Of a stretch of 64,000 nt of DNA, positions 2,954 through 5,625 are shown piece after piece (the stretch's first letter is position 1; each line of letters opens with the position of its first letter). Source of the DNA: Verrucomicrobiota bacterium (GTDB lineage: Bacteria > Verrucomicrobiota > Verrucomicrobiia > Opitutales > UBA953). The notes beneath the pieces were generated by a model, which saw only the letters and a program-made list of their open reading frames with translations, did not search any database and was not told the DNA's origin. The position numbers and the translations under genes were made by a program. Where the stretch lies: NCBI GenBank assembly GCA_030834165.1, contig JAURFU010000003.1:20860-84859 (forward strand), written 5' to 3'.

Positions 2954-4399
2954 ATGACCCAGGATAATCATTCCGGCCGCCCGCAGGGCCGTCCTCCCGA
3001 AGGAGACGGTCGCGTCTCGCGCGTCGAGGCTTCGCTCCGCGGCCCCTTCCTCCTCTTCTTCGTCTCCGCCGTCGTCTGGCTTCTCGCCGCTTCGGTGCTC
3101 GGCGTGATCGCCGCGCTCGACCTTGGTTCGCTCCAGGGCGGGGTCTTCCGCGATTGCCCGTGGTTCACGCCCGGTCGCGTCGCCGCCGCCCAGCAGGGAC
3201 TCTTCGTCTACGGCTGGGGCTTCAACGCCTTCTTCGCCCTCAACCTCTGGCTGCTCTCGCAGCTCGGTCGTTTCGAGTTCCGCAACGGCTGGCTGGCCCA
3301 GCTCGGCGGCGTGGCTTGGAACCTCGCGCTGACCTACGGCGTCGTCCGCGTCTTCGCCGGTGAGCTGAGCGGCTTCCGCCTCCTCGACTTCCCGCGTGAG
3401 GTCGGCCCCGTCCTCGCCGTCGCCTTCCTGCTGGCCGGTTTCTGGCCGATCGTCGCGTTCGCGCGCCGTCCGACGGGACACACGTTCGCCTCCCAGTGGT
3501 TCGTGGTCGGCGCATCGTTCGCCTTCCCGCTCTTCTACCTGCTGGCCCAGCTCCTCGTCCTCTGGCAGCCCGCTTCCGGCGTGGTCCAGGCGATCGCGCA
3601 CAGCTGGTTCGTCGCGAACCTCCTGCAGCTCTGGTTCGGCGCCTCGGCCCTCGCCGCGATCTACTACTTCCTGCCGAAGGTGCTCGAGCGCACGCTGACC
3701 GGCTACTACCTCGCCCCGGTCGCCTTCTGGACCTTCTTCCTCTTCGCCGGCTGGACCGGCCCGGCCGCCCTCGTGGGCTCGCCCGTCCCGCTCTGGCTCC
3801 AGTCGACCGGCGTCGTCGCCGCCGCGATGATGCTCATCCCGGTCATCATCATCGCCATCAACGTCCACGGCACGCTCTTCACGCAGGGCGGCTGGACCCG
3901 CGCCTGGAACGACACGACGCTGCGCTTCGTCAGCTTCGGGGCCGCCGCGTTCACCCTCGCCGGCCTCCTCGGCGGCGTCTTCGCCTTCCGCGCTCCGAGC
4001 GCTTTGGTCCGCTTCACCTCCTTCGGCGCCGGCCTCGAGCAGCTGCTGGTCTATGGCTGCGCCACGATGGTGCTCTTCGGCGCGAGCTACTTCGTGCTGC
4101 CTCGCCTCACCGGCGCGCTCTGGCCCTCGGCCAAGCTCGTCCATGTGCACTTCTGGGCCACCGCGCTCGGCTTCGTCGGCGCGCTCGTCGCCTGGCTGGT
4201 CGGCGGCTGGCAGACCGGCCAGCTCCTCGCCGACCCGGCCGTCGCCTACGCCGACGTCCTCCGCGCCGAGTCTTCCTGGTTCTTCATGCTGACGATTTCC
4301 GCGGTGCTGCTCCTCGTGGGACACGTCGCCTTCGCCCTCAACGCCTTCGGCATGATCCTCAAATCTTCCGCTCCGGCCGCTTCCGGCCGTCACGACTAA
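2954..4399 (+). CDS. cbb3-type oxidase subunit I (CcoN)-like membrane protein lacking canonical heme/CuB histidines
   Basis: ATG at 2954; CcoN-like landmarks (RVAAAQQ...GFNAFFA, ANLL...AAIYYFLPK, AGWTGPAALV, LVHVHFWATALG) with His ligands replaced. Confidence 0.8.
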   Translation: MTQDNHSGRPQGRPPEGDGRVSRVEASLRGPFLLFFVSAVVWLLAASVLGVIAALDLGSLQGGVFRDCPWFTPGRVAAAQQGLFVYGWGFNAFFALNLWLLSQLGRFEFRNGWLAQLGGVAWNLALTYGVVRVFAGELSGFRLLDFPREVGPVLAVAFLLAGFWPIVAFARRPTGHTFASQWFVVGASFAFPLFYLLAQLLVLWQPASGVVQAIAHSWFVANLLQLWFGASALAAIYYFLPKVLERTLTGYYLAPVAFWTFFLFAGWTGPAALVGSPVPLWLQSTGVVAAAMMLIPVIIIAINVHGTLFTQGGWTRAWNDTTLRFVSFGAAAFTLAGLLGGVFAFRAPSALVRFTSFGAGLEQLLVYGCATMVLFGASYFVLPRLTGALWPSAKLVHVHFWATALGFVGALVAWLVGGWQTGQLLADPAVAYADVLRAESSWFFMLTISAVLLLVGHVAFALNAFGMILKSSAPAASGRHD

Positions 4400-4412: not shown

Positions 4413-4937
4413 ATGAAGAACCTCAACACTCTCCTGGCCGGCGTCTTCCTCGCCGTCGCGCTGCCTTTCGGGGCGCTCGTGCTCAGCGGTCAGTCCCAGC
4501 TCGGCGGCCTCGGTCGCGCGGCCGGCGAAGAAGGCGGCGCGCTCTTCCCCTCCCGCGAACCCGGGCAGGCCGTCCAAGGCCGAGCCGTCTACGTCTCCCT
4601 AGGTTGCGTCAGCTGCCACACCCAGCAGGTCCGTCCGGCGGGGCAGGGCAGCGACATCGCCCGCGGCTTCGGCGTCCGTCCTTCCGTCGCCCGCGACTAC
4701 GCCCTGCAGCCGCAGGTGCTGCTCGGCGAGCGTCGTCTGGGACCTGATCTCGCTAACTACGGCGCGCGTTCGTCCAAGATCAACGTCGAGACCCTCCTGA
4801 CCGATCCCGCTTCCAGCGGAGCGGCCTGGCATCCTTCCTACCGCTTCGTCGACGCCGCGCAGCGCGCGGCCCTCGTGGCCTACCTGAAATCCCTCCGCCA
4901 GGATTATCCCTCGCCGGAAGCCAAATTGAAGAAGTGA
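4413..4937 (+). CDS. CcoO-like mono-heme cytochrome c
   Basis: GRAVYVSLGCVSCHTQQVRP and LGPDLANYGAR resemble CcoO GRDIY..GC..CHSQ.IRP and GPDLARVGGR. Confidence 0.82.
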   Translation: MKNLNTLLAGVFLAVALPFGALVLSGQSQLGGLGRAAGEEGGALFPSREPGQAVQGRAVYVSLGCVSCHTQQVRPAGQGSDIARGFGVRPSVARDYALQPQVLLGERRLGPDLANYGARSSKINVETLLTDPASSGAAWHPSYRFVDAAQRAALVAYLKSLRQDYPSPEAKLKK

Positions 4938-4941
4938 ACCC

Positions 4942-5625
4942 ATGAACGACCGTAACCGTCATTCCGATAGCAACCGCCCGCGCCGGGGTCCTTCCGGCTC
5001 CGAAGGCCCCTCCGACGGGCGCCTGGTGGAGGTTCACGCCCAGCTCTCCCGCGACAAGGACGAGCCGGCCGAGGGTTTCTCCCTCACGCCGATCTTCATC
5101 GTCTTCCTCTTCTGCGGATTCGGCTTCTGGGCCGGCGTCTACCTCACCAAAAACGCCGGCGGTTTCTCGGCCTCGGCCTTCGACCTCGACGCCCCCAAGG
5201 CCGTCGTGGGCGGGGGTCCCGTGGTCTTCGAACCCGACGTCGCCAAGGGAGAGCAGCTCTTCCTCGCGAACTGCGCGGCCTGTCACCAGGCCACCGGTCT
5301 CGGCGTCCCGGGCGCCTTCCCGCCGCTCGCCAAGTCCGCCTGGGTCGCCGGCGCCGAAGATCGCCTCATCAAGGCCATCCTCGCCGGTCTCGCCGGTGAG
5401 ATCGAGGTCAACGGCGTGAAGTATAACGGCAACATGCCGAACATCGGGGCCGGTCTCAAGGACGCCCAGATCGCCCATATCGCCACCTACGTCCGACAGG
5501 CCTGGGGCAACACCGGCGAGCCCGTCATGGACACCAAGGTCGCCGAAGTCCGCAAGGCCATCGGCAACCGCGCCCAGTACGTTCCGGCCGACCTGCTCAA
5601 GGAGCATCCGCTCGAGACCAAGTAA
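4942..5625 (+). CDS. Membrane-anchored c-type cytochrome (CcoP-position gene)
   Basis: Single TM, CAACHQATGLG heme motif, YNGNMP Met-ligand region. Confidence 0.85.
   Translation: MNDRNRHSDSNRPRRGPSGSEGPSDGRLVEVHAQLSRDKDEPAEGFSLTPIFIVFLFCGFGFWAGVYLTKNAGGFSASAFDLDAPKAVVGGGPVVFEPDVAKGEQLFLANCAACHQATGLGVPGAFPPLAKSAWVAGAEDRLIKAILAGLAGEIEVNGVKYNGNMPNIGAGLKDAQIAHIATYVRQAWGNTGEPVMDTKVAEVRKAIGNRAQYVPADLLKEHPLETK

Follow-up and report, generated by a model that had tools for sequence, protein, structure and literature searches.

Our study describes a respiratory gene cluster at the start of a 64,000-nucleotide stretch of DNA (the window) from the 2.25 Mb genome assembly of a Verrucomicrobiota bacterium, where a homologue of CcoN, subunit I of the C-type haem-copper oxidases, lies behind the genes of an alternative complex III (ACIII). 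All genes of the cluster are on the forward strand. The first, at 181-894, encodes an ActE-like monohaem cytochrome c of ACIII, recognised by its one CXXCH motif, its cytochrome c Pfam matches and its position after ActA-ActD. ActA (5 CXXCH motifs), ActB, ActC (NrfD) and ActD themselves are located upstream of the window, where they were read in L060, and the CcoN-like gene therefore follows a complete ACIII operon, actABCDEF, in the window's genus. The next gene (902-2173) encodes an ActF-like membrane subunit of ACIII; no Pfam match was found for this protein and its name rests on gene order, the gene lying between actE and a cytochrome gene and its homologues occupying the same place in the compared loci.

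That cytochrome gene, at 2166-2936, encodes a monohaem cytochrome c, assigned by Pfam and locus comparison, which, as is typical of the window's genus, stands as an additional member of the cluster between actF and the CcoN-like gene and is a paralogue of the cytochrome at 4942-5625 (47% identity over 109 aa). The CcoN-like gene (2954-4399) is followed by genes for two further monohaem cytochromes c, one CcoO-like (4413-4937; 45.9 bits to FixO of Pfam, CcoO chains in the PDB, and motif comparison) and one CcoP-like (4942-5625; Pfam, NCBIfam, locus and motif comparison). The CcoP-like protein keeps both its CXXCH motif and its axial Met. The CcoO-like protein keeps CXXCH and has HPSY in place of the canonical MPxY, so that the axial Met position is replaced; this substitution suggests that its haem c may be bis-His coordinated or may be without an axial Met. 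The order actF, CcoN-like, CcoO-like and CcoP-like, the last two with one CXXCH each, is found in nearly all loci with enough flanking sequence, and the true CcoNO fusions in these organisms have separate genes of their own. From this gene order we infer that the CcoN-like protein may be a subunit of ACIII. In comparison with a cbb3 operon, each partner protein here has a single haem c, and the whole module is placed behind actF.

The CcoN-like protein and the six ligand positions

The reading frame at 2954-4399 is open throughout, as the initial annotation had claimed, and encodes a full-length C-type (CcoN) haem-copper oxidase subunit I of 481 aa, identified by Pfam, NCBIfam, phmmer, alignment and AlphaFold/Foldseek. 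It matches the COX1 profile of Pfam with 112 bits (cut-off 34.8) over profile positions 4-435, and the NCBIfam ccoN model (TIGR00780) with 102 bits, where the equivalog cut-off of 583 is not reached. Residues 35-468 align in phmmer with the CcoN of P. stutzeri (3MK7), which provides the reference numbering; residue numbers were confirmed by counting along the sequence. This alignment bears out the claim of the initial annotation that all six haem and CuB histidines are replaced, at the codons that it had named. The low-spin haem b ligand H60 corresponds to Q80 (3191-3193), the CuB ligand H207 to A221 (3614-3616), and the CuB His-His pair H257 and H258 to A271-A272 (3764-3769). Within the stretch L361, E362 and Q363 (4034-4042), L361 (4034-4036) stands at the position of the haem b3 ligand H345 and Q363 (4040-4042) at that of the haem b ligand H347. 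Reference positions 60, 207, 257, 258, 345 and 347 accordingly read Q, A, A, A, L and Q. To this list we add the active-site tyrosine, Tyr251 of 3MK7, which is A265 (3746-3748) in the window protein.

The ligand columns are correctly placed, because the order-level relatives L033-L039 carry all six histidines in the same columns; a misplacement was thereby ruled out. The family alignment shows no substitute set of conserved membrane histidines in the window protein or in most ligand-deficient members, and the only near-invariant histidine of the family, H399 (3MK7 H384), is not among the six CcoN ligands. An AlphaFold model of the window protein, built with 29 sequences (mean pLDDT 87.8, pTM 0.89), has its best Foldseek matches in the PDB among the CcoN chains 3MK7, 8SMR and 9G6B (TM 0.86-0.90, rmsd 2.1-2.4 for the closest), while ba3 oxidase, nitric oxide reductase and aa3 are clearly poorer structural matches. 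As the best matches to solved structures are CcoN chains, clearly ahead of these other enzymes, the predicted scaffold is still that of CcoN, with the cofactor sites alone gone. phmmer, AlphaFold and Foldseek together confirm both the match to CcoN and the ligand positions.

The likeness to the CcoN of cbb3 oxidases (3MK7, TIGR00780) thus comprises the fold, a full-length alignment and CcoO- and CcoP-like partner genes, whereas the window protein differs in its score to the ccoN model and in the absence of haem and CuB ligands, active-site tyrosine and a CcoS-like gene. With regard to oxygen reduction, it appears from its sequence to be CcoN-like by fold and devoid of the residues that would hold the cofactors. 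A polytopic membrane protein encoded in the ACIII operon could in principle handle protons or quinones for that complex, adding to ActC and ActF; among ligand-deficient members, however, conservation falls chiefly on Gly, Pro, Trp, Asn and aromatic positions and on few charged ones, and we find such a role scarcely credible.

Ligand states, the CcoS-like gene and selection across the family

Homologues of this ACIII-linked protein were found in 50 of 56 relatives and across the class of Verrucomicrobia, and the ligand-less pattern downstream of actF, which the initial annotation had proposed as a search target, recurs class-wide. On the family profile the window protein, itself a row of that profile, scores 633.8 bits and most members score at least 300; some distant members reach 199-300 bits, yet are found at the same locus, and true CcoNO fusions of the same group score 165-218 bits. 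The contig scan used a tight family alignment, the patterns of which favour the window's genus and the ligand-complete members. Among the members aligned with 3MK7, 90 have all six histidines and 147 do not, in counts that include some genomes fetched twice; no ligand at all is left in 91 of these 147, and a single one in 45. Tyr251 is kept in all 90 ligand-complete members versus 3 of the 147 ligand-deficient ones. The family spans a range from members with every ligand in place to ligand-less ones, and the latter state was reached on several occasions. Three contigs of the window's genus are filed under other names, as Polynucleobacter meluiroseus (L152), Akkermansia muciniphila (L171) and a gammaproteobacterial MAG (L194), and represent contaminated or mislabelled public records.

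Ligand state is mirrored by a second gene. A FixS/CcoS search gave matches in three ligand-complete genomes, each directly upstream of the CcoN-like gene, and none in the ligand-deficient genomes. The CcoS-like gene, between actF and the CcoN-like gene, encodes a single helix with an unusual conserved tail, EEPEG...D.FP (L290, L291, L292), and four of the six CcoS-like proteins tested pass the FixS cut-off of Pfam. With a profile grown from these matches, the upstream gene was recognised in 90 of 90 ligand-complete loci at E 4e-19 or better; L116, seemingly without it, is a locus cut by the end of its contig. The gene is upstream in 2 of 138 ligand-deficient loci, namely L124, where 5 of 6 ligands are kept, and L040, and the remaining ligand-deficient loci gave nothing better than E 2 with this profile. 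Counted by group code, the comparison spans 37 family/genus combinations with complete ligands and about 80 that are ligand-deficient; when ligands and CcoS were compared in independent pairs, these were too few for a significant result. CcoN reportedly depends on CcoS for its haem b, haem b3 and CuB, and the CcoNOQP complex assembles in the absence of CcoS, yet is inactive (PMC8267372); an empty CcoN can therefore carry partner subunits. Loss of the ligands is thus matched, in few independent events, by loss of the CcoS-like protein as the presumed cofactor-loading factor.

The residues that took the place of the ligands vary by lineage, with QSAAQQ, HNQRYH, HSQKFI, AGARRF and others at the six positions. 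The closely related members L119, L111 and L106 keep both low-spin haem b histidines and have lost the active site, the b3 and CuB ligands being gone; they may represent an intermediate state, possibly a b-haem-only stage. Such members, and the fact that unusual ligands are conceivable from sequence, lend some substance to the idea that haem or another cofactor is bound through different residues and that the protein is redox-active or oxygen-reactive. Against this, no conserved set of histidines is present at or near the old sites in the window protein and most ligand-deficient members, and the locus no longer has the gene for cofactor insertion, so that we regard a cofactor held in this way as very unlikely.

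Trees were built on an alignment stripped of the ligand columns. At least 5 changes between the ligand-complete and ligand-deficient states are needed on the careful tree and 4 on the quicker one, and a single origin of ligand loss, tried as one clade of ligand-less rows, was rejected by the AU test (p-AU 5.3e-6) in the presence of long branches. Since both the CcoN outgroup and the short-branched members are ligand-complete, the ancestral state was ligand-complete and the direction of change is loss; the exact number of losses is unsure because of the long branches among the ligand-deficient rows.

The initial annotation had taken the gene for a maintained scaffold rather than a decayed one, and selection on it agrees with that reading. 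For ligand-less genes compared in 16 within-genus pairs, dN/dS was 0.04-0.16, a range that overlaps the 0.02-0.15 of the measurable ligand-complete pairs, and the ligand-less genes are under strong purifying selection. A decaying relic, its function lost and the gene not yet removed since it lies inside the ACIII operon, might be suspected from the longer branches of ligand-deficient compared with ligand-complete members and from the varied replacements in the ligand columns, as if the active site drifted freely. The low dN/dS values speak against it, as do the reading frames, which are intact and of normal length at almost every locus, the rare exceptions coming mostly from fragmented assemblies. 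The ligand-less form has also persisted, following separate losses on several occasions, in dozens of genera, with structural residues conserved throughout. For the window gene, pseudogene decay was rejected on its open frame and these dN/dS values, and for the family we consider a relic highly improbable. The profile and structure alignments, the ligand-less homologues and the low dN/dS all support a cofactor-free oxidase scaffold that has been maintained.

Partner cytochromes, further oxidases and a possible function

The haem c sites of the partner proteins have fared differently from the ligands of the CcoN-like protein. Among ligand-deficient loci, 149 of 149 retain CXXCH in the CcoO-like protein, and the CcoP-like protein keeps CXXCH in 143 of 146 and its axial Met in 140 of 146. 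For the CcoO-like protein, the axial Met is present in 88/88 ligand-complete versus 81/149 ligand-deficient loci, and other ligand-deficient lineages than that of the window have Cys or no residue at this position. Part of the haem chain is therefore less constrained, and the CcoO-like haem is perhaps not a relay everywhere. This is the pattern expected if the CcoO-like haem, which formerly would have fed haem b, were under weaker demand and the CcoP-like protein still carried electrons.

In a census of COX1-family proteins, every ligand-deficient genome examined has at least one further such protein, and in the window genome this is a caa3 oxidase with normal motifs. In three ligand-complete genomes (G045, G196, G058) the ACIII-linked CcoN-like protein is the sole COX1-family protein, which suggests that the ligand-complete form is a working oxidase; yet all 90 ligand-complete members have a residue other than Glu at the position of CcoN Glu323. 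Genes for aa3 follow the module in 17 ligand-deficient loci.

From these data we propose a model in which a C-type oxidase module would have become a fixed companion of ACIII in this class and stayed active in some lineages. The lineage of the window and, independently, other lineages lost the ligands, the active-site tyrosine and the CcoS-like gene but retained the fold of CcoN as well as the CcoO- and CcoP-like cytochromes. The ligand-less CcoN-like protein would hold the monohaem cytochromes beside ACIII, and electrons from quinol would exit through c-type haems to a separate caa3 oxidase, in an assembly of ACIII, the CcoNOP-like module and caa3. We think it rather probable that the ligand-less protein serves in this way as a cofactor-free membrane anchor or adaptor between ACIII and caa3, and we infer from gene content its physical association with both complexes as well as the electron path. 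The suggestion of the initial annotation that ACIII is coupled to cytochromes or to another oxidase fits the gene order, the kept haem c motifs and the constant second oxidase. Three observations count against an adaptor: the axial Met of the CcoO-like haem is loosened in ligand-deficient loci, the caa3 genes of the window genome are on another contig, and the independent CcoS events are few.

In the main rival reading, the protein would only assist the assembly or stability of ACIII or of the oxidase next to it, without taking part in electron transfer. A similar role has been proposed (PMC10715153, citing its reference 13) for a ligand-less COX1-like protein of Acetobacter clustered with CtaB, and besides this precedent the constant place in the ACIII operon and the loosened axial Met of the CcoO-like protein in about half of the ligand-deficient loci favour this reading. 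A stability role alone, however, needs no haem, whereas the c-haem motifs of both partners are kept in nearly all ligand-deficient loci, and the cluster of the window's genus even has a third such cytochrome. We therefore see the assembly factor as a serious but doubtful alternative to the adaptor.

Methanotroph copies and relation to known systems

Five members of the class (f29) carry pmoA, and four of these have a family match (G068, G085, G110, G116). The loci read in G068 (L252, L289) and G110 (L245, L288) have lost five of the six ligands and the tyrosine; the six positions read SESHFV and ADAHQT, the lone His being at the second position of the CuB pair. In both genomes the CcoN-like protein is encoded behind ActF and adjoins a gene for aa3 subunit I. 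The other COX1 proteins of the two genomes, read by eye, resemble aa3, ba3 and cNorB, and no further C-type oxidase was seen among them. G062, which has one pmoA, is without the CcoN-like family, in keeping with the reported absence of 'cbb3' from Methylacidithermus pantelleriae PQ17. The oxidase adjacent to ACIII in verrucomicrobial methanotrophs has been called cbb3 (PMC8498564, PMC6688271, PMC11102522). As the pmoA copy pattern and the oxidase set agree with these organisms, this 'cbb3 oxidase' is very probably a ligand-less member of the family described here, and published statements of a cbb3 oxidase beside ACIII in these methanotrophs probably need revision.

Parts of this picture were already known. 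C-type oxidase genes beside ACIII are mentioned for Opitutaceae and verrucomicrobial methanotrophs in earlier papers (Refojo 2010, cited in PMC8498564; PMC6688271; PMC11102522), and these very probably belong to the same cluster and family as the window gene; the papers treat the Opitutaceae and methanotroph gene as a functional cbb3, whereas the copies in L245/L288, L252/L289 and the window are ligand-less. The ACIII - aa3 supercomplex of Flavobacterium johnsoniae (PMC8498564, PMC8552683) is similar in that ACIII is coupled to an oxidase, a coupling that in our case is deduced from genes; its partner is an active aa3, while here a ligand-less C-type subunit with cytochromes of its own stands between them in the operon. 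The Acetobacter protein is likewise a homologue of haem-copper subunit I that has no metal ligands and is kept in a gene cluster. The initial annotation's statement that such a protein has no described function was thus nearly right, but overlooked this published case. The two differ in that the Acetobacter protein is COX1-like, comes from another phylum and is found with CtaB, while the family of the window is C-type, accompanies ACIII and c-type cytochromes, extends across a class and has lost its ligands repeatedly. A search of open-licence papers for ligand-less CcoN found none that describes how this family lost its ligands, the recurrence of that loss or the link with CcoS.

Within one family and at one locus, we thus have a series that begins with a ligand-complete oxidase and ends with an empty one, and along which the gene for cofactor insertion disappears as the ligands do. 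Cultured carriers exist for both states, Cerasicoccus strains with all ligands present and, very probably, Methylacidiphilum with a ligand-less member, and a general question becomes testable, namely whether the core of an energy-converting enzyme can survive as pure structure in a respiratory assembly. That the oxidase core was emptied repeatedly in most of the class and retained as an obligate structural subunit in an assembly of ACIII and caa3, and that the methanotroph 'cbb3' is not an oxidase, strikes us as an evenly balanced proposition. Annotations of a 'cbb3-type oxidase' beside ACIII, and the conclusions on oxygen affinity derived from them, need a check of the ligands first, and this includes the methanotrophs of acidic geothermal soils. 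If the proposition is true, the high-affinity 'cbb3 oxidase' ascribed to verrucomicrobial methanotrophs would be no oxidase.
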